NCBI RefSeq assembly: GCF_007860175.1
Contig: NZ_SJPX01000005.1
Span: 496,001-560,000, forward strand
Origin: Rubripirellula reticaptiva
Lineage (GTDB): Bacteria; Planctomycetota; Planctomycetia; Pirellulales; Pirellulaceae
DNA length: 64,000 nucleotides
Direction of reading: 5' to 3'
In this document: positions 43,174 to 57,792 of the stretch, piece after piece
Layout: every line of letters starts with the position of its first letter
Numbering within the stretch: the first letter of the stretch is position 1
Translations under genes and position numbers: made by a program
Notes under the pieces: model-generated
Seen by the model: the letters and a program-made list of their open reading frames with translations, nothing else
The model's database searches: none
Told to the model about the DNA's origin: nothing

Positions 43174-44097
43174 CTAAACAAAGACCGACCAACCGGTTGC
43201 TTTGACCAACGCTTCGAGCGCCAAGCTTCCCACCGCTGAAGTCCCGGCTTGGTTCAGGCCCGGCGACCAAACCGCGACCGCGCCATGCCGCGGCGCGATC
43301 ACCAGGATGCCTCCTCCGACACCGCTCTTGCCCGGCAGCCCAATCCGATAAGTGAAGTCGCCGCTGTTGTCATAGTGCCCACACGACATCATGACCGCAT
43401 TGATACGTCGACATGCTTGGCTGCTTACCATTTGCTGACCGCTGATTGGGTCGCATCCGTCGAACGCCAGGAACAGTGCGGCTCGAGCAAGTTGGCGGCA
43501 CGTCATCGCGATCGAACAGTGACAGAAGTACGCCGCCAACGTTTCCTCGACGGGGCACTTTATGTTTCCGTACGACTTCATAAACGATGCGAGGGCTCGA
43601 TTTCGTTCGCCCGCCAATGACTCGGATTCCGCGACAGCCTGATCGACTTTGATCGAGTCGTCATCAGCAAGTCTTCGGATTCGGTCCAGCAATTCAGCGA
43701 TGGTCTTTGACGATCCAAGCCGCTCGACTAAATGGTCTGTCACGACAATCGCACCCGCGTTGATCAATGGATTGCGAGGAATCCCGCGTTCGTGTTCCAA
43801 CTGGACGATCGAGTTAAATGGCGACCCCGAAGGTTCACGTCCCACCCGTTCCCACAACGTGTCGCCCACCACACGAAGTGCCATCGAAAGCGTGAAAACT
43901 TTCGAAATGCTTTGGATCGAAAACAACTCATCCGCGTCGCCGAGGCAAGATTGCGTGCCGTCACCCAGCACCACCGCGAGGCCAAACTTCCGAGGATCCA
44001 CTGCCGCTAGTGCAGGAATGTAGTCCGCGACTTTGCCCTGACCTCGCATCGGTTCGACCGACGCTTCAATCCCTTGCAGTACACATTCCCAATCCAT
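43174..44097 (-). CDS. glsA: Glutaminase
   Basis: A 307-residue serine-dependent glutaminase that turns L-glutamine into glutamate and ammonia. The beta-lactamase-like catalytic pair is in FSIQSISK (Ser63, Lys66); NPLINAGAIV and the C-terminal PGKSGVGGGILVIAP complete the pattern. It lies 102 bp downstream of the semialdehyde dehydrogenase gene and in the same direction, so it may be the last gene of the leftward half of the amine cluster, or an independent unit. Confidence 0.92.
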   Translation of the reverse strand: MDWECVLQGIEASVEPMRGQGKVADYIPALAAVDPRKFGLAVVLGDGTQSCLGDADELFSIQSISKVFTLSMALRVVGDTLWERVGREPSGSPFNSIVQLEHERGIPRNPLINAGAIVVTDHLVERLGSSKTIAELLDRIRRLADDDSIKVDQAVAESESLAGERNRALASFMKSYGNIKCPVEETLAAYFCHCSIAMTCRQLARAALFLAFDGCDPISGQQMVSSQACRRINAVMMSCGHYDNSGDFTYRIGLPGKSGVGGGILVIAPRHGAVAVWSPGLNQAGTSAVGSLALEALVKATGWSVFV

Positions 44098-44199
44098 TAG
44101 ATCTCAGTGATAAAGTCCAAGTAACGAACCGACGTTGGTCTCAACGAACGAATATCGCAAACACGCCAGAACGACAGCCTAGCGTATTCAACGGTGAAA

Positions 44200-45648
44200 T
44201 CACGAGGGGCTCGGCACTGCTTGAGCTTCGATGAAGTCGTGCAGGCCTTCGACGCCACCTTCGCGGCCGAATCCCGATTGCTTCATGCCCCCGAACGGAG
44301 CTTCCGCGGTTGGGCCCGACCCTGTGTTGCAGCCGACGTGGCCGAAACTGAGCCGTGCGATGACGCGCTGGGCACATCCGTCGTCACTGGTGAAAACATA
44401 CGCCGCCAATCCGTACTCGGTCGAATTGGCTGCGGTGATGACTTCCTCTTCGTCAGCAAATTCGATGATCGGAGCTAGCGGACCGAATGTTTCGTCTTGC
44501 ACACATTCCATCGCCGACGTCACACCTCGCAACACCGTTGGCGGAAAGAAATTTCCGGTGCCATGGTTGACCATGGTCGATCGTTCACCGGCGATGAGTA
44601 TAGCGCCTTTCGCGAGCGCGTCATCGACGTGACGCTGAACTTTGGCCACCGCGTTTTTATCAATCAGCGGCCCCATGTCGGTGCCTTCAACCATTCCATC
44701 GCCAACCTTCAAAGCCGCGGCTCGTGCGGCAAGCTTTTCGGCAAAGCTGTCCGCGATCTCGCGCTGCACATAAACACGATTGGCGCACACGCATGTCTGA
44801 CCGGCACCGCGAAATTTGTTTGCCATCAAGTGCTCAATCGCTTTGTCGATATCTGCATCGGCAAACACAATGAACGGTGCATTGCCGCCCAGTTCCAACG
44901 CCAAACGCTTCAAATGCGGTGCCGTCGCCGCCATCAATTTCTTGCCCACTGGCGTTGATCCGGTAAAGCTGATGATGCGAACGGCTGGGTGTTCGCACAA
45001 CGCATCGCTGATCGGCCCGGCTGGCCCAAGCACTAAGTTCGCCTTGCCCGCAGGCAGATCCAACGACTCCATTAACGAGAACAACGCGATCATCGACAGC
45101 GGCGTTTTGGACGACGGCTTCACCACACAGCCACAATCAGCGGCCAGCGCCGCAGAAAACTTCTTAGCCAACATCGCTAGCGGAAAATTCCACGGTGTCA
45201 CCAGCGCCGCAACGCCGGCCGGACGATAGTGCACCATCCAGCGGTGACCGCGAGGACGGTCGGGCAGTTCTCGTGGTTTCAAATGATCGATACAGCTCGC
45301 ATAAAAACGAAAGAAGCTAGCGGCATAGTCGGCTTCGCCCATCGCTTCCTTCCACGGCTTGCCATGCTCGTGCGTGACGATGCGGCCAAGCTCTTCGCGA
45401 TTCTTGATGATCAGATCGGCAATTTGATCCAGCCATGTGCGTCGCTGTTCGATCGTCGTTGGCGTCGCCAGTGTCCGCTCGGCTGCTTCGATCGCGCGAA
45501 TCGTCTCGTCGCGGCCCATCACTGGCACGACCGCCACCATTTCGTCAGTCGCAGGGTTGATAACCGTTTGAGTCTTTCCCGAATCGGCGTGTGCCCATTT
45601 ACCGTCGATGTATCCCGCAGCATTCTTTAGCAGTGGTGAATCAAGCAT
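44200..45648 (-). CDS. gabD: Succinate-semialdehyde-type dehydrogenase (NAD(P))
   Basis: A 482-residue aldehyde dehydrogenase. The catalytic Cys is in FRGAGQTCVCANRVYVQ and the general base Glu in LELGGNAPFIVF; FTGSTPVGK is the cofactor loop. GQTCVCANR is the form usual in succinate/glutarate-semialdehyde dehydrogenases, so an omega-semialdehyde is the likely substrate, although the exact chain length cannot be fixed. Its start overlaps the end of the symporter gene by 8 bp. It would take the product of the divergent aminotransferase. Confidence 0.9.
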   Translation of the reverse strand: MLDSPLLKNAAGYIDGKWAHADSGKTQTVINPATDEMVAVVPVMGRDETIRAIEAAERTLATPTTIEQRRTWLDQIADLIIKNREELGRIVTHEHGKPWKEAMGEADYAASFFRFYASCIDHLKPRELPDRPRGHRWMVHYRPAGVAALVTPWNFPLAMLAKKFSAALAADCGCVVKPSSKTPLSMIALFSLMESLDLPAGKANLVLGPAGPISDALCEHPAVRIISFTGSTPVGKKLMAATAPHLKRLALELGGNAPFIVFADADIDKAIEHLMANKFRGAGQTCVCANRVYVQREIADSFAEKLAARAAALKVGDGMVEGTDMGPLIDKNAVAKVQRHVDDALAKGAILIAGERSTMVNHGTGNFFPPTVLRGVTSAMECVQDETFGPLAPIIEFADEEEVITAANSTEYGLAAYVFTSDDGCAQRVIARLSFGHVGCNTGSGPTAEAPFGGMKQSGFGREGGVEGLHDFIEAQAVPSPS

Positions 45649-47167
45649 GGTTGATTTCCTTATCCCAGGGTTTGTGTGAATGATCCAGCAAGGCTTGGCC
45701 GCGATGGTCCATTAGGCTGACAACAATAGCAACGATCATCGAAACCGCGAACGCGGGTGGCAACTCGGACAACGAAGCAAAACTGTCGCCGACCAGTGGC
45801 AACTGCGGCGCAATGAATTTGAAACAAGGCACACTTACGAATCCAGCTAGCATCGCCGCCAACGCACCGCGTGCGGTCAACTTGGTCCAGTAGAGCGACA
45901 GAATCATTGTCGGACAAAACGTTGCCGAAATTCCTGACCAACCAAAGATTGCGAACCAAAAAACCGTTCGGCCTGGCACGAGTGCCGCCACCGAAAATGC
46001 GATCAATAGCGAGTCGCCCGCAAGTCCGAATGTCACCCATCGACTGCGACCGAGCAATTCAGTGTCGGACATCTCGGGGTGCCTTACCTTTTGGTAATAG
46101 TCACGCACAAACGCACTCGACGCCAAAACCAACAACGAATCAACCGTCGACATGATCGCGGCCAACACGATCGCAATGTACAAACCGATGCCCCAATCCG
46201 GTACCGATTGATCGACTAGCATCGGAAGCACATGCTGGCCACCTTGTCCGAGCCCGTCTTCAAGCGACTGGTCCGGCGTCATCAACAACGCACGCCCCAC
46301 CATGCCGACCAGCACCGCACCAAGAGTCGCCAGCAGCGTCCAAATCACGGCCACGATCGCTCCGGGACGAATTTCCTTTTCTGATCGCATCGACAAGAAA
46401 CGCACAAAGATTTGCGGCGAGCCCAGAAAGCCCAAACCGATGGCGAGGAAACCCAGGATCGTAAAGAACGAACTCCATCCCGGCCCGGACGGACCCCATA
46501 GCGACATCAACCTTGGATCCTGCGCATGGATCCGTTCGACCGCCGTATCCATGCCGCCGACTGCCATCAACCCGAAAACTGGCAAGGCCACCAGACCTAG
46601 CACCATCAGGCAAGCCTGAAAAACATCGGACCAAACTACCGCAACAAACCCGCCGCTGACGATATAGCAAAGCACAATCGAAAACCCAACGACTGCGCCG
46701 ACGTAGTAGTTCCACCCTAGAAAGCTTTCGAATGCAGTGCCGATCGCGTCGATTTGTGCGCTGACGTAGATCGTGACGAACACGACTAGCGTCAAGGCAG
46801 CGACCAATCGAATCCGCTGGGTCTTGTCCGCCAATCGCGACTCCAAGTAGTCAGGAATCGTGATCGAGTCGTAACGATCGGTCATGCGTTTGAAGCGACC
46901 GCACAAAAATATCCATGCCGCCGCGACCCCCACGACTTCGCCCAGAACCACCCACAACGCCTGAGCCCCAACGGCGGCGCCCATTCCGGTCAAACCGATC
47001 AACAGCCACGCCGACTCGCCCGTCGCGCGTGACGAAAACGATGCCGCCCAAAAACCAAACCGCTTGTCTCCGGCATAGTAATCTCGCAAATCCTTCATTC
47101 GTCGCGATGCAACCATTCCGATCACTAACAGAATGACAAGATAGATCGCGATGCCGATCAATTTCAT
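45641..47167 (-). CDS. Sodium:solute symporter (PutP-like)
   Basis: A 508-residue transporter of the SSS family with about 13 membrane helices. DYYAGDKRFGFWAASFSSRATGESAWLLIGLTG resembles the PutP branch, with the Na-site Ser/Gly-rich segment; SAQIDAIGTAFESFLGW and VDSLLVLASSAFVRDYYQ match helix 8 and its loop. PutP relatives carry proline or other amino compounds. Its place in the cluster suggests uptake of the substrate, an amino acid or polyamine-like compound. It is 44 bp after the regulator gene and overlaps the dehydrogenase. Confidence 0.85.
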   Translation of the reverse strand: MKLIGIAIYLVILLVIGMVASRRMKDLRDYYAGDKRFGFWAASFSSRATGESAWLLIGLTGMGAAVGAQALWVVLGEVVGVAAAWIFLCGRFKRMTDRYDSITIPDYLESRLADKTQRIRLVAALTLVVFVTIYVSAQIDAIGTAFESFLGWNYYVGAVVGFSIVLCYIVSGGFVAVVWSDVFQACLMVLGLVALPVFGLMAVGGMDTAVERIHAQDPRLMSLWGPSGPGWSSFFTILGFLAIGLGFLGSPQIFVRFLSMRSEKEIRPGAIVAVIWTLLATLGAVLVGMVGRALLMTPDQSLEDGLGQGGQHVLPMLVDQSVPDWGIGLYIAIVLAAIMSTVDSLLVLASSAFVRDYYQKVRHPEMSDTELLGRSRWVTFGLAGDSLLIAFSVAALVPGRTVFWFAIFGWSGISATFCPTMILSLYWTKLTARGALAAMLAGFVSVPCFKFIAPQLPLVGDSFASLSELPPAFAVSMIVAIVVSLMDHRGQALLDHSHKPWDKEINHA

Positions 47168-47211
47168 AGCGGTCTCAGTGGAGGGAACTCATTCGATCGC
47201 TGGCTAGTGAT

Positions 47212-47799
47212 CTAAAAAGTCGGCGGCGTGCATGAACTGACGATCTCGCAATCGATTTTTCCGATGTTGCGAAAACGATGTGGCAACTGGCTTGAAAAGT
47301 AATAACCATCGCCCGGCCCCAGCACTTCGCATTGATTGCCAACGGTCAACTCGATTTCGCCGCGAACAATCACCCCCGCCTCTTCGCCATCGTGACGAAG
47401 CATGGTGGGACCGGTGTCACCGCCCGGCACATAAGTTTCGTGCAGCACCTGCATCTTGCGTCCGGTAACCGTTCCGCCGATCTGACGCAGCACGACCGTG
47501 CCGTCGGAAATGCGATTCATTTCATGGGCGCGAAAAAAGATCTCTCGATCTGGCTCGAACTCCTCGGCAAAAAAATCGGCGAGCGATAACCCGAACACAG
47601 TCAAAATCTTCTTCAACGATGCGATTGACGGACTAACACGATCTTGCTCGATCATCGATATAGCGCCGTTGGTCACACTCGCCTGCTTCGCCAACTCTCG
47701 CTGCGACATGCCGTGTGCCGTTCGCAGCCGACGAATCCTGGCCCCCACTTCATTGGACTCACCAACGTGAACTGAAGCACTTGCCTTTTCGCTCAACAT
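47212..47799 (-). CDS. XRE-family regulator with cupin domain (PuuR-like)
   Basis: A 195-residue transcription factor. The N-terminal helix-turn-helix is GARIRRLRTAHGMSQRELAKQASVTNGAISMIE (about 20-52). A cupin_2 effector domain follows from about residue 110 (VPGGDTGPTMLRHDGEEAGVIVRGEIELTVG, then GDGYYFSSQLPHRFRN). This is the arrangement of E. coli PuuR, which represses putrescine use. It opens the leftward operon and faces the aminotransferase operon, so it probably controls both. ATG at 47799 is preferred to the GTG-like extension to 47841. Confidence 0.87.
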   Translation of the reverse strand: MLSEKASASVHVGESNEVGARIRRLRTAHGMSQRELAKQASVTNGAISMIEQDRVSPSIASLKKILTVFGLSLADFFAEEFEPDREIFFRAHEMNRISDGTVVLRQIGGTVTGRKMQVLHETYVPGGDTGPTMLRHDGEEAGVIVRGEIELTVGNQCEVLGPGDGYYFSSQLPHRFRNIGKIDCEIVSSCTPPTF

Positions 47800-47865
47800 A
47801 TTTAACAAAATCCGACCAGAGTTCGATAAAAATAAACCCATTGCCAGGAATATAGCACTGGGTGT

Positions 47866-47877
47866 TTAATATATCAA
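47866..47877. promoter_or_regulatory. Candidate operator in the divergent intergenic region
   Basis: TTAATATATCAA is a 12-bp near-palindrome (5 of 6 pairs) in the 177-bp gap between the XRE-cupin gene and the aminotransferase. An AT-rich symmetrical site at this place suits binding by the cluster's own regulator. This is position and symmetry only. Confidence 0.3.
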
Positions 47878-47976
47878 TCGCAGGCGGGGGGGGTTCTGTC
47901 GCGGTGTCGCGTGACCACTGATGGCCCGTGACGTTAGCCAAACATGCTCGTTCCGCGACCCGAAAGGCCGGCTTCC

Positions 47977-49317
47977 ATGGCGACTGATGCGGACTTGATT
48001 GCTCGACGAGCCGCCGTGACCCCTCGCGGTATTTCGATGGCCACGTCGCTGATTGCCGATTCAAGTTCCGGCGCCGTGTTGCGTGACCCGAGTGGTCGCG
48101 AGGTGATCGATTTCGGCGGCGGCATCGGAGTGATGAACGTTGGACACTGTCAGCCGAAAGTGGTGAAAGCGATTACCGATCAAGCAAATCGCTTGCTTCA
48201 CAGCTGCTTTCAAGTTGCCACTTACGAACCCTATGTCGCGCTCTGCGAAAAGCTGGCTGAGATTCTGCCTCACGTCGATGTCACAAAGCTAGCCGGCGAT
48301 GCCTGCACGGGTCACACCAAGACGATGCTGGTCAACACGGGCGCCGAAGCCGTCGAGAACGCCATCAAGATCGCTCGCCAAGCGACCAACCGTTCCGCGG
48401 TGATCTGTTTCACCGACGGTTTTCACGGACGGTCGATGATGGCAATGTCGCTAACGTCAAAGTTTGGCTACAAGATCGGCTGCGGACCCTACGCCCCCGA
48501 AGTCTATCGGCTGCCGTTTCCAAATCACTATCGTTACGGCGATGGACTCGGCGAGGCTCAGTTTGTCGAACGCGAATTGAATCGTTTTCGCGAATCACTA
48601 ATCAATACGGTCGCTGCCGAACAAGTGGCGGCTGTGATCTTGGAACCCATTCAAGGCGAAGGCGGCTTTGTGCCCGCGCCGCTGGCCTATCTGCAAGGAC
48701 TTCGTGAACTATGCGACGAGAACGGCATTCTGCTGATACTTGATGAAGTCCAATCGGGATTTTGCCGAACCGGGCGATGGGCTGCTTACGAACACTACGA
48801 CATCTTGCCAGACATTTCGACATGGGCCAAATCAATGGGCGGTGGTCTGCCTATCGGTGCCGTCATGGGCCGTAGCGAGATCATGGACGCGGCTCGATTA
48901 GGCACGATTGGCGGAACTTACGGCGGCAACCCTGTCTCGTGCGCCGCGTCGCTGGCCACGATCAAGTTGATGGAAGAACTAAACCTCAATGCGCGTGCTA
49001 CCGAGATTGGCAATACCATGTTCGCACGACTCCGCGAACTGCAAGGCCGTTTTCCGGATTACATCGGCGATGTCCGTGGACGCGGCGCGATGGTCGGCGT
49101 CGAACTCGTCAACAACGGTAATCCCAAATCGCCAGCAACCGAACTGACGTCACGCGTCTTAAAAGCTTCGATGTTGCGTGACGTCCTGATTCTTCGTGCC
49201 GGAATCCACGGCAACGTGATTCGCTTCCTGATGCCGCTGGTAATTTCCGATCAACAACTCAATGACGGACTGGACATCGTGACCGAGGAAATCGCTAAAG
49301 CAATCCAGAATCCCTGA
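47977..49317 (+). CDS. gabT: Class III aminotransferase (GabT/PuuE type)
   Basis: A 446-residue PLP omega-aminotransferase. NTGAEAVENAIKIAR, FHGRSMMAMSLT, LDEVQSGFCRTGRWAAYEH and WAKSMGGGLPIGAVMG (PLP Lys) are the class III landmarks; the N-terminus MATDADLIARRAAVTPRGIS matches 4-aminobutyrate aminotransferases. The ATG at 47977 has AAAGG 9 bases upstream and gives the family start; an ATG at 47944 is further out. It starts the rightward operon and would feed a semialdehyde to the divergent dehydrogenase. Confidence 0.92.
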   Translation: MATDADLIARRAAVTPRGISMATSLIADSSSGAVLRDPSGREVIDFGGGIGVMNVGHCQPKVVKAITDQANRLLHSCFQVATYEPYVALCEKLAEILPHVDVTKLAGDACTGHTKTMLVNTGAEAVENAIKIARQATNRSAVICFTDGFHGRSMMAMSLTSKFGYKIGCGPYAPEVYRLPFPNHYRYGDGLGEAQFVERELNRFRESLINTVAAEQVAAVILEPIQGEGGFVPAPLAYLQGLRELCDENGILLILDEVQSGFCRTGRWAAYEHYDILPDISTWAKSMGGGLPIGAVMGRSEIMDAARLGTIGGTYGGNPVSCAASLATIKLMEELNLNARATEIGNTMFARLRELQGRFPDYIGDVRGRGAMVGVELVNNGNPKSPATELTSRVLKASMLRDVLILRAGIHGNVIRFLMPLVISDQQLNDGLDIVTEEIAKAIQNP

Positions 49318-49388
49318 CGGATACTATCTCTCGACAAGACGTAACCGCAACGAAAACCGAACAAACCATTTCACCGGAGCATCTTACC

Positions 49389-50276
49389 TTGATTCCATTT
49401 GCCATTGGCGGCCTACAACTCAACACATCAGGGCTGCGAGACAACCTACCGTACATGAACGCAAAGCTCGACTATTTCATGTATCTCTTTCCATGGGTTC
49501 AAATGGTCGTGTTTAGCGAACTGGCGGCCTACGGTCCCAACCCAGCCAAAGCGGAACCCTTGCCCGGCCCGGCCGAACGCAATTTCCAAGAAATGGCGGC
49601 CAAGCACAAAATTTGGGTCGTCACCGGCTCACTCGTCGAAATCCTCAATGGCCAACACTACAACACCCTGTCCGTGATTGATCCCACCGGAAAAGTCATC
49701 GGACGTTACCGCAAGATGTTTCCATTTTTACCTTACGAGGAAGGCACGACATGCGGCGGATCGTTCTTTGTGTTCGACGTGCCAGATGTCGGCCGTTTTG
49801 GCGTTTCGATTTGTTATGACATGTGGTTCCCCGAAACCACACGAGTGCTCGCCAGCATGGGCGCGGAAGTCATCCTGCACCCGACGCTCACCAACACGAT
49901 TGATCGCGACGTCGAACTGTGCATTGCACGAGCCAACGCGGCGACGAATCAGTGCTTCATGATCGACATCAATGGCGTCGGTGATGGGGGCAACGGCAAA
50001 TCGATCATGTGCGGCCCCAACGGCGAAGTACTGCATCAATTCGGATCCAATGAAGAAATGGTTCCGATGGAAATCGACTTGGAACGAGTCCGACGGTCTC
50101 GTGAAGTCGGCATGCGGGGACTCGGCCAACCGCTGAAGAGCTTCCGCGACTCGGAAGTCATCTTTCCAGTCTACGCACCGGGCGGAAAGAACACCGAGTA
50201 CCTGCAGTCCCTCGGCCCGCTAGCGAAGATGTCACGGGGATCACGAGCTGGTCTCGACGAAGCCACTCAGGCGTAG
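49389..50276 (+). CDS. Nitrilase-superfamily carbon-nitrogen hydrolase
   Basis: A 295-residue amidase of the nitrilase fold. The catalytic triad is visible: Glu in VVFSELAAYG, Lys in GRYRKMFPFLP and Cys in VSICYDMWFPE. Length and fold are near those of N-carbamoylputrescine amidase and omega-amidase, but no agmatine deiminase is in the window, so the substrate is open; a mono-acylated diamine or an omega-amide would suit the cluster. TTG start with CCGGAG about 11 bases upstream. It lies 71 bp after the aminotransferase and 109 bp before the decarboxylase. Confidence 0.85.
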   Translation: MIPFAIGGLQLNTSGLRDNLPYMNAKLDYFMYLFPWVQMVVFSELAAYGPNPAKAEPLPGPAERNFQEMAAKHKIWVVTGSLVEILNGQHYNTLSVIDPTGKVIGRYRKMFPFLPYEEGTTCGGSFFVFDVPDVGRFGVSICYDMWFPETTRVLASMGAEVILHPTLTNTIDRDVELCIARANAATNQCFMIDINGVGDGGNGKSIMCGPNGEVLHQFGSNEEMVPMEIDLERVRRSREVGMRGLGQPLKSFRDSEVIFPVYAPGGKNTEYLQSLGPLAKMSRGSRAGLDEATQA

Positions 50277-50385
50277 CCATCGCGGAAGCCATTCGAGGCT
50301 CTGAACATCCATCCGTATTTTCTACGATATCGAAACTCTCGACGAGTTCCGCCAATCGCGAACTGAATAACAAGAGATCGTCGAG

Positions 50386-53235
50386 ATGAAAGAGCAAGAC
50401 TACGACTACTTTGACTTCCAATCACTCGATCCGGCCGAGGTCGCGTTCTATAACCTGACGCGATTGCGTACGGACAATTGGCACTTTTTACGTGACAACG
50501 CACGGCGATTGCATCGGCTGCACAAATCGGGAACGGTGCAAGAGCAGGCCGATGTAATGTGGTTGACGGATGCGTGCACCGAAGTGTTCAGCTTTTTGCA
50601 GCCGTTGGAAGAGTTCTTTGTTTTCCCTGGAATTCCCGCGCTCGAACAAGTCAAAGCTGCTTTTGAACAGCGTCGGTACGACGACTTTGCCAGGCAAATC
50701 GTCCGCATGGTCCGGATGATGACAAACGGGCTGTTTCGGAAGCTCGACTTGACCACGTCACGCCTATCCGACTACGGCGATTTGCTGAACGTGGCGAAGC
50801 TGAGCGATGAACTACATACTCGGATTCGACAAGAAAAACGACCTTACTTTCAGGTTCTGATTGTTGACGACCTGACTGAAACCGAATCAAAAGAAGTCCG
50901 ACGGCAACTGCGTGATTTGCGCCGCCCCGATGACCTATTCTTCTATGAAGTCGTCGTGGCCAGAAGCTACGAGGACGCTTTGCTGGCGGCTCTGATCAAT
51001 CCCGACATTCAAACCTGCGTGGTCCGCTACAGCTTCCCGTTTCGATCAAAGAAGAAGTTTCGTTTGCTGGACGAACTTCATTCGCTGCTGAAGCATAATG
51101 TCAAAAAACTGGACTCGGCGATGCCGACCGAACGCAGTTTGGCATTAGGAAAGTCACTGAAATCACTGCGTCCAGAACTGGACTTGTACCTTGTCACCGA
51201 TGCGCCGGTCGAGAGCATCGTTGGCGAACCGAGCCGCGCGTTTCGCCGTGCGTTTTACAACCAAGGCAACTACCAGGAAATGCACCTGAGTATCCTGAAG
51301 GCTGTGAACGAGCGATACGAGACACCGTTTTTCAATGCGCTGAAAAAATACAGCCAGAAACCAACGGCGATGTTCCACGCGCTGCCGATTTCCCATTCAG
51401 CAACGATCGTCAGGTCGCACTGGATCAAAGACATGGGCGAATTTTACGGTTCCAAAATGTTCGAGGCCGAAACGTCCGCGACCACGGGTGGACTCGATTC
51501 GCTGCTTCAACCCGGCGGATCACTTCGCGACAGCCAAGAAAACGCCTCGCGAGCGTTCGGATCTCGGCGCACTTACTTTGTCACCAATGGAACCTCGACG
51601 GCTAACAAGATCGTCATGCAAGCGATCAATCGCCCGGGCGATATCGTGCTGTTGGCGCATGACTGCCACAAATCGCATCCCTACGCGTGCATCTTGTCGG
51701 GTGCCTTTCCTGTGTATCTGGATGCCTATCCGCTTAGCGAGTACTCGATGTACGGGGCGGTGCCTCTGCGCGAGATCAAGTCTCGTCTGCTAGAACTTCG
51801 TGCCGCTGGCAAACTCGACCAAGTGCGAATGTTGCTGCTAACCAACATCACGTTTGATGGAATCGTTTACGACCCGATTCGGGTGATGGAAGAGGTGCTG
51901 GCAATCAAGCCGGACATGATCTTTTTGTGGGATGAAGCCTGGTGTGCCTACGCAAGGTTCTCGCCGATCCTGCGACGACGAACCGCGATGTGGTCGGCAC
52001 AGGAACTGCGACAGCGATTCGATTCATCGGCCTACCTCAAAAAATTCGCAAAATGGAAAACTCAATTCGAAGCGTCGAATACTTCGGACGATGAAACGTG
52101 GTTGGAAACGCGACTGATGCCCGATCCCGAACTCGCTCGGGTGCGTGTCTATGCGACCCATTCAACACACAAAACCCTGACGGCCCTTCGCCAGGGTTCG
52201 ATGATCCACGTTCACGACCAGGACTTCGAACACTACACGCGCAACGCGTTCAACGAAGCCTACATGACCCACACGTCGACGTCGCCGAACTATCAGATTC
52301 TGGCGTCACTCGATGTCGGCCGGCGACAAGTCGAGTTGGAAGGCCACGATATGGTTGGTCGCAGCATTGAGTTGGCGATGATGCTGCGCGAACGGATCAC
52401 GAGGGACCCGCTGATCAGCAAATTCTTTACGGTACTTGCCGCCAAAGAAATGATCCTTCCCGAATTCCGACCATCGGGATTGGAGGAATATTTCAGCAAC
52501 AGCGCAGGCTGGTGCCGCTTGGACAAAGCTTGGCTGGGCGATGAATTCGTACTCGACCCGACCCGAGTAACGTTGCATGTCGGCAGCACCGGAATGGATG
52601 GCGACACGTTCAAGAAGTTGCTGATGGACCGGTTTGACATCCAGATCAACAAGACTTCGCGAAATACTGTCCTGTTCATGATCCACATTGGCATGACGCG
52701 CGGCACGATCGCACATTTGGTCAATGTCTTGTCGGAAATCGCGATGGACCTCAATGACAAACTGGATAGCTGGAGCAATGTGGAGCTAGCAGCCCACGAA
52801 CAGAACGTTCGGTCACTCAACGAAGAACTGCCGCCACTGCCAAACTTCAGCCGTTTTCATCCTTCGTTCTTGCCCTCTCCCGAAAACACGACTCCCGAAG
52901 GCGATATGCGACGTGCCTTCTACCTCGCCTACGACGACACGGCTTGCGAACACATCAAAATCGAAGATGGATCGCTGCTGGAAGCCGTTCAGGCGGGCGA
53001 TCGAGACATCGTTTCAGCGGCCTTCATCACGCCGTATCCACCCGGGTTTCCGGTGCTGGTCCCTGGCCAAGTCGTCACGCGAGAGATCGTCCAGTACTTG
53101 ATGGCATTGGATGTTCAAGAGATCCACGGTTACGAACCGATGTACGGCACGCGAGTGTTCAAAACATCTGCGGTGGTTCGGGAAAGTGAAAAGCAAGATG
53201 CACTCTTGATTTCGAACCGTAGTGGATCTTGTTGA
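50386..53235 (+). CDS. Very long Orn/Lys/Arg decarboxylase
   Basis: A 949-residue PLP decarboxylase of fold type I. The PLP Lys596 is in YATHSTHKTLTALRQGSMIHV, Asp516 in FLWDEAWCAYARF, and FVTNGTSTANK with LAHDCHKSHPYACI form the rest of the site. E. coli members have about 710-760 residues; here about 340 residues precede the catalytic core. Part of these (about 150-275) could be the receiver-like wing domain, but the first 150 residues are not recognised. The choice between arginine, lysine and ornithine cannot be read. The end overlaps the frame of the ATP-grasp gene. Confidence 0.88.
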   Translation: MKEQDYDYFDFQSLDPAEVAFYNLTRLRTDNWHFLRDNARRLHRLHKSGTVQEQADVMWLTDACTEVFSFLQPLEEFFVFPGIPALEQVKAAFEQRRYDDFARQIVRMVRMMTNGLFRKLDLTTSRLSDYGDLLNVAKLSDELHTRIRQEKRPYFQVLIVDDLTETESKEVRRQLRDLRRPDDLFFYEVVVARSYEDALLAALINPDIQTCVVRYSFPFRSKKKFRLLDELHSLLKHNVKKLDSAMPTERSLALGKSLKSLRPELDLYLVTDAPVESIVGEPSRAFRRAFYNQGNYQEMHLSILKAVNERYETPFFNALKKYSQKPTAMFHALPISHSATIVRSHWIKDMGEFYGSKMFEAETSATTGGLDSLLQPGGSLRDSQENASRAFGSRRTYFVTNGTSTANKIVMQAINRPGDIVLLAHDCHKSHPYACILSGAFPVYLDAYPLSEYSMYGAVPLREIKSRLLELRAAGKLDQVRMLLLTNITFDGIVYDPIRVMEEVLAIKPDMIFLWDEAWCAYARFSPILRRRTAMWSAQELRQRFDSSAYLKKFAKWKTQFEASNTSDDETWLETRLMPDPELARVRVYATHSTHKTLTALRQGSMIHVHDQDFEHYTRNAFNEAYMTHTSTSPNYQILASLDVGRRQVELEGHDMVGRSIELAMMLRERITRDPLISKFFTVLAAKEMILPEFRPSGLEEYFSNSAGWCRLDKAWLGDEFVLDPTRVTLHVGSTGMDGDTFKKLLMDRFDIQINKTSRNTVLFMIHIGMTRGTIAHLVNVLSEIAMDLNDKLDSWSNVELAAHEQNVRSLNEELPPLPNFSRFHPSFLPSPENTTPEGDMRRAFYLAYDDTACEHIKIEDGSLLEAVQAGDRDIVSAAFITPYPPGFPVLVPGQVVTREIVQYLMALDVQEIHGYEPMYGTRVFKTSAVVRESEKQDALLISNRSGSC

Positions 53236-53305
53236 TCAGGTTCCAAAAAAATCGATCTTTGACAAGTTCCAATACAACCATGACCTCCGCTTAGGAATGC
53301 CCACG

Positions 53306-54787
53306 ATGACAACGAATACCAAACGCGTACTGAAAGGCATCCCAGATATCCGTCTGCACTTTCATCGTAACGAAACGCCAATTTACTTCATCAGCGCCAC
53401 GAATTTCAATTTGATGGGCATCGATGAATGGGTCCGCAACTTTCGATACATCACCTATATCGATTGCTTTGATGGACAGCACCCGCACGTCATTTCACCA
53501 TCCGAGATCCCTCACCGACCGTTCACGTCGATCGAAGATGTCAACAACTACTTGCTTGAACACAAAGAAGTGGTCGACCTGATTCGCCGACGGTCCAAAA
53601 ACGGAAAGGGTGGCAAAGCTGTTTTCTTATTCTTTGATGAACAGACCGAAGCGTTGTGTGAGCAACTGGGGTTGGAAGTGTGTTTCCCGTCGGCCCAACT
53701 GCGTACGGAAATCGACAACAAGATCATGACGACACGGATCGGCGATCGCGCGGGAATCGCCAGCGTTCCCAACGTGCTGGCCAAAGTCGAAAGTTACTCG
53801 CAAATGCGAGAACTGACCGGTCACCTGGGCAACGACTTAGTGATTCAAACGGCATTCGGCGACAGTGGCCACACCACATTCTTCATCTCCAGCGAGGAGG
53901 ACTGGAACAAGCACGCCGACGAAATCGTTGCAGACCCCGAAGTCAAAATCATGAAACGGATTCGTTGTCGCGGTGCGGCACAAGAAGCCTGTGTGACGCG
54001 GCACGGTACGATCGTTGGGCCAATGATGACTGAATTGGTGGGCTTCAAAGAATTGACGCCTTATCGTGGCGGTTGGTGCGGGAACGAAGTTTTGGCGGAA
54101 TCATTTTCCCAGGACGTTCGCGCCAAGGCTTGTGATATGACGTTTCGCTTTGGCGAAGAGCTTCGCAAAATGGGATATCGCGGTTACTTCGAACTCGACT
54201 TTCTACGCGACCTCGATTCGGACGAACTTTACCTTGGCGAAGTCAATCCGCGAGTCACCGGCGCTAGCGCGATGACAAACTTAGCGGCGTTTGCACATGC
54301 GGACGCACCACTGTTCCTGTTCCACTTGCTTGAATGGGCGGACGTTGATTTTGAACTCGACGTCGCCGAACTCAATGCACGCTGGTCCGATCCCGACAAC
54401 ATCGATAGCTGGGGTCAACTGGTCATCAAACACACTGCGGACACCGTCGAACTGATCACCGAGACGCCGCAGACGGGCATTTGGAAATTGCATGAAAATG
54501 GCAACGTCGAATACCTTCGCATGCAAACTCACCGGCGCACAGTCGAATCGGAACAGGAAGCTTTCTTCTTGCGAATCGCCAAGCCGGGTGATTACAAGTA
54601 CGAAGGTGCGGATCTTGGCATCCTGATCACGCCAGGCCGATTGATGACCGAAGATTTCGAACTTAACGATCGAGCGAAAGCCTGGACCAAAGGTATCATC
54701 GGCGAGTTCAAATCACGAGCCATCCAACCAGCAGAGGCCGAAGTGGCCACGGAAATTGCTGAAGTCGCTAACTTCAAGATGATGTAA
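53306..54787 (+). CDS. ATP-grasp ligase
   Basis: A 493-residue protein with an ATP-grasp domain in the middle. KIMTTRIGDRAGIASVPNV begins the ATP-binding part; QTAFGDSGHTTFFISSEEDW is the flexible loop; KIMKRIRCRGAAQEACV is a nucleotide-contacting strand. GYFELDFLRD and LYLGEVNPRVTGAS hold the Mg-binding acidic residues. Such enzymes join a carboxylate (as acyl-phosphate) to an amine. The C-terminal 150 residues are not recognised. ATG at 53306 has TAGGA 9 bases upstream; a GTG at 53222, overlapping the decarboxylase by 14 bp, is possible. It abuts the C45 gene directly. Confidence 0.83.
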   Translation: MTTNTKRVLKGIPDIRLHFHRNETPIYFISATNFNLMGIDEWVRNFRYITYIDCFDGQHPHVISPSEIPHRPFTSIEDVNNYLLEHKEVVDLIRRRSKNGKGGKAVFLFFDEQTEALCEQLGLEVCFPSAQLRTEIDNKIMTTRIGDRAGIASVPNVLAKVESYSQMRELTGHLGNDLVIQTAFGDSGHTTFFISSEEDWNKHADEIVADPEVKIMKRIRCRGAAQEACVTRHGTIVGPMMTELVGFKELTPYRGGWCGNEVLAESFSQDVRAKACDMTFRFGEELRKMGYRGYFELDFLRDLDSDELYLGEVNPRVTGASAMTNLAAFAHADAPLFLFHLLEWADVDFELDVAELNARWSDPDNIDSWGQLVIKHTADTVELITETPQTGIWKLHENGNVEYLRMQTHRRTVESEQEAFFLRIAKPGDYKYEGADLGILITPGRLMTEDFELNDRAKAWTKGIIGEFKSRAIQPAEAEVATEIAEVANFKMM

Positions 54788-55756
54788 GTGTCTGTCATCT
54801 TTCAAGCCGTTTCGGAGTCGACGCCGGGACCAAAATGGCAATCCTTCTTCGAACGTCTTTGGCCGTCCTATCACCTGTGGTTTCTCAAACAAGGTGATCA
54901 GGCGCGCCCCACGTATTTGGCCTGCGAAACGGCGATGAAGAAGCATTTGCCCGAGTTGCTGCCGCTGTACTTTCAGTTAGTGGAACTCGGCGGCGGTTCG
55001 GACGCGGCTGCTCGGTTCCTAAGTTTGTACTGCCCGACGCCCTACATGTCCGGATGTTCGCAAGCGGTTTGGACTCGCGACGAATCGTTTTTGATCCGCA
55101 ACTACGATTACAGTTCCAAGCTCTGGGAAGCGACGTTGCTGCGGACATGTTGGAACGGCAAGCAAGTGATGGCGATGAGCGATTGTGCCTGGGGTGTGCT
55201 CGACGGCATGAACGAAGACGGCTTGGCTGTTTCGTTGGCGTTCGGCGGACGCAGAACATTAGGAGTCGGATTCGGTATCCCACTGGTTCTGCGATACATT
55301 CTGGAATTCTGCGACACGACGGCTCAAGCCACCGACGTTCTGCGACGAGTACCAAGCCACATGGCGTACAACGTCACGGTCCTGGATCGCAAAGGTGCGC
55401 ACGCAACCGTGTTTGTTTCACCCGATCGCGATATCGTGGTTTCACGCCGCAAGCTAGCGACCAACCATCAAGGCACCGTCGATTGGCCCGAGCATGAACG
55501 GGCAACCGCCAGCCTGGATCGCGCCCACGTGCTTTCGGTTCGACTGCAGGATCCCAATGAAACGCATGAGCGATTTGTATCACGATTCCTAGAACCGCCC
55601 TTATACCAATTCAATCATCAAGCCGGCTGGGGCACGCTTTACACGACAACCTACAATCCGGCCCGCGGCGTCTTCACCTGCCGATGGCCCGGATACTGCC
55701 TCGAACGGACATTCGAAAATTTCGCCGAACAAGCCGTCTCGCTTCGCTTTACTTAA
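54788..55756 (+). CDS. C45-type Ntn hydrolase (acyltransferase/amidase family)
   Basis: A 322-residue protein related to the C45 family (acyl-CoA:6-aminopenicillanate acyltransferase) and other linear-amide Ntn hydrolases. An N-terminal 89 residues precede SGCSQAVWTRDESFLIRNYDYSS. Family members cut themselves before the Cys (here Cys90), which then becomes the nucleophile, and RNYDY is the conserved acceptor of the active site. NEDGLAVSLAFGG supports this. It begins with GTG just after the ATP-grasp stop, so coupled translation is likely. It could hydrolyse, or transfer, the amide made by the ligase. Confidence 0.8.
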   Translation: MSVIFQAVSESTPGPKWQSFFERLWPSYHLWFLKQGDQARPTYLACETAMKKHLPELLPLYFQLVELGGGSDAAARFLSLYCPTPYMSGCSQAVWTRDESFLIRNYDYSSKLWEATLLRTCWNGKQVMAMSDCAWGVLDGMNEDGLAVSLAFGGRRTLGVGFGIPLVLRYILEFCDTTAQATDVLRRVPSHMAYNVTVLDRKGAHATVFVSPDRDIVVSRRKLATNHQGTVDWPEHERATASLDRAHVLSVRLQDPNETHERFVSRFLEPPLYQFNHQAGWGTLYTTTYNPARGVFTCRWPGYCLERTFENFAEQAVSLRFT

Positions 55757-57653: not shown

Positions 57654-57703
57654 AGGTGTTGATCACCTTTGCAAAAGGTCGGCGACACGCAATCGAAAAA
57701 GAG

Positions 57704-57792
57704 CGGACGGTGAGGGATTCGAACCCCCGGTAGAGTTTCCCCCACGCCGGTTTTCAAGACCGGTGCCATAAACCAGACTCGGCCAACCGTCC
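57704..57792 (-). tRNA. tRNA-Ser (anticodon TGA)
   Basis: An 89-base serine tRNA read leftward. The acceptor stem GGACGGT pairs with ACCGTCC, the anticodon loop is CTTGAAA (anticodon TGA) between CCGGT and ACCGG, there is a long variable arm, and the T-loop has GGTTCGAATCC. The CCA end is not encoded. A run of five T follows at once (about 57695-57699), which can serve as a terminator. Confidence 0.95.

Follow-up and report, generated by a model that had tools for sequence, protein, structure and literature searches.

The stretch analysed here, referred to as the window, comprises 64,000 nucleotides of the Rubripirellula reticaptiva genome (assembly GCF_007860175.1; contig NZ_SJPX01000005.1, positions 496,001 to 560,000), which is 7.85 Mb in size and 99.9% complete. 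It contains a cluster of nine genes in two divergent arms, which an earlier examination of the DNA (the original prediction) had proposed to encode a new pathway for amide-masked polyamines. All nine open reading frames are open at the coordinates listed in Table 1, and Pfam and NCBIfam scans assigned each of them to the family proposed. The genes are as closely spaced as had been described, with gaps of -14 to 109 bp between neighbours across the nine genes; those separating gabT and the nitrilase, decarboxylase, ATP-grasp, and C45 genes in the right arm are 71, 109, -14, and 0 bp, respectively. The starts of the regulator gene and gabT, which are transcribed divergently, are 102 bp apart, and the C45 gene and a nucleoside transporter gene are convergent (tail to tail).

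Table 1. Features of the cluster and its border, with positions numbered from the first nucleotide of the window
Feature	Position	Strand	Basis or remark
Glutaminase GlsA	43174..44097	-	NCBIfam; neighbour, not a conserved member
Aldehyde dehydrogenase (ALDH), probable succinate-semialdehyde dehydrogenase (SSADH)	44200..45648	-	3rh9, 614.7 bits; TIGR01780, 519 bits
SSS symporter, PutP-like	45641..47167	-	Pfam SSF; accessory, seldom conserved
XRE-cupin regulator, PuuR-like	47212..47841	-	Pfam Cupin_2 and HTH_3; PuuR as best NCBIfam match
Operator-like imperfect palindrome GTTTAATATATCAATC between regulator gene and gabT	47864..47879	.	Motif search of the genome
GabT-type class III aminotransferase with gamma-aminobutyrate (GABA)-transaminase residues	47944..49317	+	NCBIfam; Protein Data Bank (PDB) matches; residue check
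Nitrilase-fold amidase (NIT), Glu44-Lys109-Cys142	49389..50276	+	Pfam CN_hydrolase
Rv2531c-type pyridoxal phosphate (PLP) decarboxylase of the ornithine/lysine/arginine (OKR) fold, N-terminal extension of ~310 residues	50386..53235	+	PDB 9n0n match
ATP-grasp ligase	53222..54787	+	NCBIfam NF005096 ('biotin carboxylase' by name); no Pfam match
C45 N-terminal nucleophile (Ntn) hydrolase/acyltransferase	54788..55756	+	NCBIfam NF040521
tRNA-Ser(tga)	57703..57792	-	3' of the cluster

Relatives of the ATP-grasp gene were collected from 294 genomes of the phylum (model threshold, E <= 0.001) and from a collection of named species, in which 179 relatives were found; the best 80 of these 179, some of them on short contigs, are referred to as the 80 named loci, and gene families were counted in them at E <= 1e-10. 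A wider set of 123 loci consists of named loci, plasmid loci, and loci from two further classes (11 of 385 and 9 of 369 genomes); it was searched for neighbours at E <= 1e-25 and includes one locus twice, as L157 repeats L073. The gene order proved to be conserved in several phyla: the C45 gene lies directly downstream of the ATP-grasp gene in 100 of the 109 loci with enough sequence on that side, and the decarboxylase gene lies directly upstream in 93 of 107. Among the 80 named loci, the decarboxylase is present in 76, C45 in 74, the nitrilase in 61, gabT in 47, ALDH in 41, the regulator in 10, an SSS protein in 7, and the glutaminase in none. Four or more of six genes (ALDH, gabT, nitrilase, decarboxylase, ATP-grasp, and C45) also occur together on contigs of 14 genomes other than that of the window. 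The conserved gene unit is thus real and far beyond chance, and our confidence in it is high. Distances between the proteins were correlated as well (r = 0.41-0.86; 0 of 1000 permutations in each case), but this is given little weight because shared species history alone could produce it.

The ATP-grasp model matches 152 of the 294 phylum genomes, mostly weakly, and a full-length relative is present in 15. Fourteen of these copies exceed the curated cut-off, the remaining one (G118) scoring 610 bits. The sample includes three further genomes of the family to which the window genome belongs (G121, G205, and G274), all without a full-length copy, and because of this patchy distribution horizontal transfer of the cluster is likely. 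Within the best 80 of the 179 relatives, the closest are from planctomycete metagenome-assembled genomes (best, a Pirellulaceae genome, L050, 92%), and the whole set spans Planctomycetota, Gemmatimonadota, Alpha- and Gammaproteobacteria, Myxococcota, Acidobacteria, and others. In L162, L163, L155, and L160, the ATP-grasp protein belongs to a more distant subfamily (45-47% identity) and the neighbouring genes are rearranged; L162 also carries an MTTB-type methyltransferase and an amidase.

The ATP-grasp and C45 genes are the most tightly associated part of the unit. C45 orthologues were found in 16 of the 294 phylum genomes, namely in 14 of the 15 with a full-length ATP-grasp gene and in G016 and G036, where ATP-grasp fragments adjoin C45. 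Two contigs, L058 and L061, carry ATP-grasp by itself and represent split clusters, the C45 and decarboxylase genes being located elsewhere in the same genomes, and three of eight genomes checked (G118, G645, and G1060) contain ATP-grasp and no C45 match. On the basis of this co-occurrence across genomes, split contigs included, the two genes are close to inseparable, with few exceptions, in keeping with the original prediction.

The ATP-grasp protein scores 771 bits against NF005096 (cut-off, 684). Its E-x-N-x-R site (E340, N342, and R344) is kept in 118 of 118 copies; a further acidic position, E324, is more variable (99 copies with Glu, 11 with Asp, 4 with Asn, and 4 with Cys). In biotin carboxylase, the QVEH motif following N-x-R forms the bicarbonate/biotin site. 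This motif is absent from the cluster proteins, which contain TGAS-type residues instead (Gly347 in 118/118), and the biotin carboxylase name of NF005096 is therefore probably wrong; the candidate function as a biotin carboxylase was rejected on the same grounds. No biotin-lipoyl (biotin carrier) domain was detected by the Pfam scan of 16 window proteins. The structural model (pLDDT 80) resembles the biotin carboxylase and PurK folds (TM ~0.5-0.6), and the protein is likely a carboxylate-amine ligase. The C45 protein scores 147 bits against NF040521 (cut-off, 85), and its nucleophile, Cys90 at the processing site, is kept in 107 of 107 copies. Its model (pLDDT 95) has isopenicillin N acyltransferase (2x1c, TM 0.74) as the nearest fold; the two share the conserved nucleophilic cysteine, whereas sequence identity is ~15% and that enzyme belongs to another pathway.

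The best solved relative of the decarboxylase is Rv2531c of Mycobacterium tuberculosis (PDB 9n0n/9n0o), which belongs to the same family over ~917 residues (9n0n, E=1.2e-240, residues 23-939) and whose activity is described as not clarified in the available part of PMC12910592. Residues were counted in 92 copies (at least 40% identical and at least 85% complete). The active-site residues Lys596 (PLP lysine), His428, and Asp516 are kept in all 92. In Escherichia coli LdcI, Glu526 has been proposed as the substrate-binding acid (PMC5607190, available part). The equivalent residue is Asn755 in 92 of 92 cluster decarboxylases, so that no acidic residue is present. Ninety copies have Gln where the PGE motif has its glutamate, and 89 have Arg759. 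Because of the Asn at the Glu526 position, lysine, ornithine, and arginine are not the default substrates, and the polyamine substrate of the original prediction is weakened. Together with the AspT neighbours described below, these residues mildly favour an acidic or neutral substrate, for which glutamate would be the simplest choice because its decarboxylation gives GABA.

Rv2531c-type decarboxylases occur in 17 of the 294 phylum genomes, i.e. in all 15 with ATP-grasp and in G207 and G275 (a partial match). In three of five loci where the gene has no ligase nearby (Ensifer, Rhodobacter CZR27, and planctomycete G207), AspT-type antiporter genes adjoin it, one of the AspT proteins scoring 558 bits against TIGR03802 (cut-off, 547); no AspT relative was found in any of the 123 ligase loci. 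The ligase-free decarboxylase and the antiporter, adjacent in L142, L143, and L166 of two phyla (Alphaproteobacteria and a planctomycete), are a probable decarboxylase/antiporter pair. The window genome also encodes, at another location (L169 6911-9199, G000:C4), an ordinary OKR decarboxylase of 762 aa.

For GabT, the residue check left out loci L147-L166 and included one partial row (L054). All 52 complete rows of at least 41% identity from the loci scanned keep I61, R163, E239, K296, and R427. We take these to correspond to I50, R141, E211, K268, and R398 of E. coli GabT, which presumably include the carboxylate-binding arginine; the position of E. coli Q79 is His in 44 of the 52 rows, and six distant aminotransferases (30-35% identity), those of L121 and L125 among them, lack the full set. 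The window protein matches both PuuE and GabT structures. As the GABA-transaminase residues are kept in these 52 rows, it reads as a GABA aminotransferase, and a role on a masked amine, as originally proposed, is disfavoured. Near the cluster in L117, L121, L125, L140, L151, L155, and L156, another class III aminotransferase of the NF005685 type (PRK07483, a generic family name; at least 46% identity) was observed; all four proteins tested, including those of L121 and L125, exceed the family cut-off, and the three checked for the GABA residues (L121, L125, and L140) lack them. The best solved match of the ALDH is an SSADH, and its TIGR01780 (SSADH) score is below the cut-off of 646. The nitrilase triad is present in 85 of the 85 copies passing the filter. 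The window nitrilase meets no NCBIfam cut-off, and assignment as the N-carbamoylputrescine amidase AguB was rejected (79 bits; cut-off, 410). No NCBIfam family matched four more cluster nitrilases at E <= 1e-25.

The regulator is closest to PuuR, although its score of 151 bits is below the cut-off of 211. The palindrome between the regulator gene and gabT is the sole match in the 7.85-Mb genome when up to one mismatch is allowed (control, 0). Upstream of the regulator gene, 11 of 14 loci of planctomycetes and Proteobacteria have a related site (<=1/200 shuffles, which preserve base composition only), and no good site was found in the other three (L130, L063, and L067). The motif was drawn from the window, L050, L055, L056, and L074; among the nine loci outside this set, six score <=1/200, three of which are from related Pseudorhodobacter. 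The unique site beside the regulator gene and the related sites elsewhere support autoregulation by the PuuR-like protein through this candidate operator. The glutaminase and the symporter had also been counted as members of the set. The former was found in 1 of the 123 loci, the window itself, and was rejected as a cluster member, and the symporter is restricted to 7 of the 80 named loci, reaching at least 63% identity only in L050, L074, and L082; neither is therefore a core member.

In some Proteobacteria, the ligase and C45 genes are combined with a different set of upstream functions. In Thiothrix eikelboomii and Thiofilum flexile (L084 and L086), the nitrilase, ATP-grasp, and C45 genes are accompanied by genes for an amino-acid permease, a ureohydrolase, a thiamine pyrophosphate (TPP) enzyme, an ALDH, a D-amino-acid dehydrogenase-type oxidoreductase, and a protein with racemase and arginase domains (identified by Pfam for L086 and by similarity for both). 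Plasmids of Shinella, Roseateles XES5, and Sinorhizobium RAC02 carry a like gene set beside the same three genes, and Cupriavidus necator N-1 contains an AruI-like gene and genes for an ALDH, an importer, the nitrilase, ATP-grasp, and C45. Against the 5-guanidino-2-oxopentanoate decarboxylase model, whose cut-off is 500, the TPP enzymes of Shinella and Thiofilum score 737 and 770 bits, respectively. For the Shinella racemase, the nearest family is the ornithine racemase Orr, with 393 bits against a cut-off of 480; the Shinella ureohydrolase passes the TIGR01230 agmatinase cut-off. Fusions of the racemase to an arginase-family domain were observed in L084, L086, L131, L138, and L141 (by Pfam for L086 and L131; Orr-like in L131), beside AruI-like and D-amino-acid dehydrogenase genes. 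By established pathway knowledge, a racemase, a D-amino-acid dehydrogenase, a 2-oxo-acid decarboxylase, an ALDH, and a ureohydrolase would convert arginine or ornithine to GABA. GabT and the Rv2531c-type decarboxylase are absent from the loci of Thiothrix, Thiofilum, Shinella, Roseateles, and Sinorhizobium, and in the first two genera the genomes contain only weak, partial matches to the decarboxylase. The ligase and C45 genes thus also stand beside an arginine/ornithine-to-GABA route with the decarboxylase not in the operon, which weakens the original polyamine interpretation. The likeness to the known arginine transaminase/2-ketoarginine route (AruI, ureohydrolase, and GABA) extends to Shinella, Roseateles, Sinorhizobium RAC02, Thiothrix, and Thiofilum, whereas the S. 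meliloti network, in the part of PMC7268258 available, names no ATP-grasp, C45, or nitrilase protein.

These observations would be best accommodated by a patchy, probably horizontally spread, PuuR-like-regulated cluster centred on GABA, a reading to which we assign a probability of roughly 0.35. The substrate of the Rv2531c-type decarboxylase would be an acidic amino acid (glutamate being the likeliest), which it would convert to GABA, and GabT and the SSADH-like dehydrogenase would convert GABA to succinate. The ATP-grasp enzyme would form an ATP-driven amide bond between GABA (or a close omega-amino acid) and a second molecule, C45 would cleave or transfer this amide, and the nitrilase may trim a related amide. 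In some Proteobacteria, the alternative front end would supply GABA from arginine or ornithine in place of the decarboxylase. All of these substrates, and the GABA-type amide as a product, are what we infer from sequence comparison.

The E. coli Puu pathway (PuuA-PuuB-PuuC-PuuD-PuuE with PuuR) resembles the cluster in uniting a PuuR-like regulator, a GABA aminotransferase, an ALDH, a ligase, and an amide hydrolase. In a Puu-like masked-diamine pathway of the kind originally predicted, the decarboxylase would produce putrescine (or masked ornithine would be decarboxylated), the ATP-grasp enzyme would acyl-mask one amine, an aminotransferase and ALDH would oxidize the other end, and C45 would unmask the product to GABA. 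The regulator and the joint travel of ligase and hydrolase speak for this pathway, as do the NF005685-type aminotransferases in seven loci, the three checked lacking the GABA residues, and the Orr-like racemase and ureohydrolase of the alternative front end, which could supply ornithine. Moreover, the keto acid derived from ornithine is the preferred substrate of an AruI-like S. meliloti enzyme, whose activity on it is sevenfold higher (PMC7268258, available part). The cluster nevertheless differs from Puu in having an ATP-grasp instead of a glutamine-synthetase fold and a C45 instead of a C26 hydrolase, in lacking an FAD oxidase, and in possessing its own decarboxylase and nitrilase. The Pfam scan of the 16 window proteins detected no glutamine-synthetase-fold gamma-glutamylputrescine synthetase, no FAD oxidase (PuuB), no amine oxidase, and no aminotransferase besides GabT, i.e. 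no further amine-oxidizing enzyme, and the in-cluster GabT is of the GABA type. The proposed amine-binding acid is missing from the decarboxylase, also in four ligase-free copies (alignment A4). The C26 (PuuD) hydrolase is absent from the cluster; a PuuD-family protein exists elsewhere in the genome (G000:C3:371451) but gave no further link, its neighbours matching none of the cluster queries. We consider the Puu-like pathway somewhat less likely than the GABA-centred reading. The GABA-centred unit is preferred because it needs fewer extra assumptions to account for GabT, the SSADH, the decarboxylase features, and the alternative front end. From the original prediction, the conserved unit and the possibility of an amide mask were retained; the polyamine substrate (Asn755, 92/92) and GabT as the masked-amine enzyme became less likely.

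In Rhizobium leguminosarum and Sinorhizobium meliloti, plasmid-borne decarboxylase, ATP-grasp, and C45 genes form a trio from which gabT, ALDH, and the nitrilase are missing in the 25-kb loci viewed. Glutamate dehydrogenase is encoded ~1-6 kb from the trio in five rhizobial loci, and in strain Vaf10 (one record, L146) the trio adjoins nifHDKEN. Genes for a dipeptide-type importer and for a protein related to 6-aminohexanoate-dimer hydrolase (for L134, E=4.5e-62 against PDB chains of this hydrolase) come after the trio in L132, L134, L137, L139, and L146, with an amidase in four of the five. A PutA neighbour is present in L161. Glutamate dehydrogenase, a flavin mononucleotide (FMN) glutamate-synthase-type protein, PutA, and the window glutaminase are glutamate-linked neighbours and were counted for the GABA-centred reading. 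The rhizobial trios, with their glutamate dehydrogenase, nif, importer, hydrolase, and amidase neighbours, would also suit a pathway whose end product is a GABA-derived small amide (a nitrogen store, solute, or rhizopine-like nutrient), C45 being a finishing acyltransferase or a recycling hydrolase. This is unlikely, since gabT in 47 and ALDH in 41 of the 80 named loci point to GABA consumption, no such product is known, and the rhizobial downstream operon may be unrelated. A more speculative version, which we regard as a long shot, is that ATP-grasp and C45 would run an omega-amino-acid amide economy in which GABA, formed from glutamate by a novel type of OKR-fold decarboxylase or from arginine, is converted to a GABA amide or short oligomer, the rhizobial trio making and reclaiming a rhizopine-like nutrient; it is suggested by the nif genes near the trio (one record) and by the importer and nylon-oligomer hydrolase relative in five loci.

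No arginase-family match was found in the window genome, whereas 22 of 27 cluster genomes searched contain one, and urea or guanidine use as the common function is disfavoured by the absence from the window genome. The same absence would fit a guanidino breakdown in which agmatine from the decarboxylase would lose its guanidino carbon through ATP-grasp, C45, and the nitrilase rather than through agmatinase or agmatine deiminase. The ATP-grasp fold, nearest to those of biotin carboxylase and PurK, both of which use bicarbonate, and the weakly AguB-like nitrilase are in line with this route. However, a ureohydrolase is already present in the alternative-front-end operons and in five decarboxylase loci, the window genome encodes two agmatine deiminase-family proteins, the ATP-grasp protein lacks QVEH, and no nitrilase gene accompanies the trio in the rhizobial loci viewed; such a route is therefore very unlikely.

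Several points weigh against the GABA-centred reading itself. Arg759 is replaced by Ile in Rv2531c, and the substrate role of Glu526 rests on docking and an earlier proposal (PMC5607190, available part); for both reasons the argument for an acidic substrate is weak. The ureohydrolase neighbours in five decarboxylase loci (L085, L092, L147, L149, and L159) would fit arginine as a substrate equally well. AspT proteins, which exchange acidic substrates, are absent in two of the five ligase-free loci (L144, and L145 of Roseateles). The Roseateles XES5 plasmid that bears the alternative front end also carries the decarboxylase gene at another site, so the gene was not lost there. The FMN glutamate-synthase-type neighbour, found in Roseobacter ponti, scores weakly (120 bits; cut-off, 1047), and a C. 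oxalaticus transporter scores higher for DctA than for GltP. Nor does the reading account for the nitrilase or for the presence of a GABA ligase in one operon with enzymes that drain GABA.

Literature searches turned up no description of this gene set or pathway, in agreement with the original prediction. The nearest comparison for the ligase step is Cp1B, an ATP-grasp pseudodipeptide ligase of E-64 synthesis, which forms an amide in a pathway whose amines are putrescine, cadaverine, or agmatine. Unlike the cluster ligase, it is fungal and glutathione-synthetase-like and joins epoxysuccinate to an amino acid, the amine being joined by a separate enzyme, Cp1D (PMC12568646, available part).

The Rv2531c-type and NF005096 families gain a common conserved genomic context in several phyla, and this context warns that a gene with the OKR fold is not automatically a polyamine gene. 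If the ATP-grasp/C45 pair makes and breaks a GABA-type amide, the metabolism of GABA, glutamate, and arginine would include a route for which no description was found, with a distribution that takes in many uncultured bacteria as well as rhizobial plasmids.

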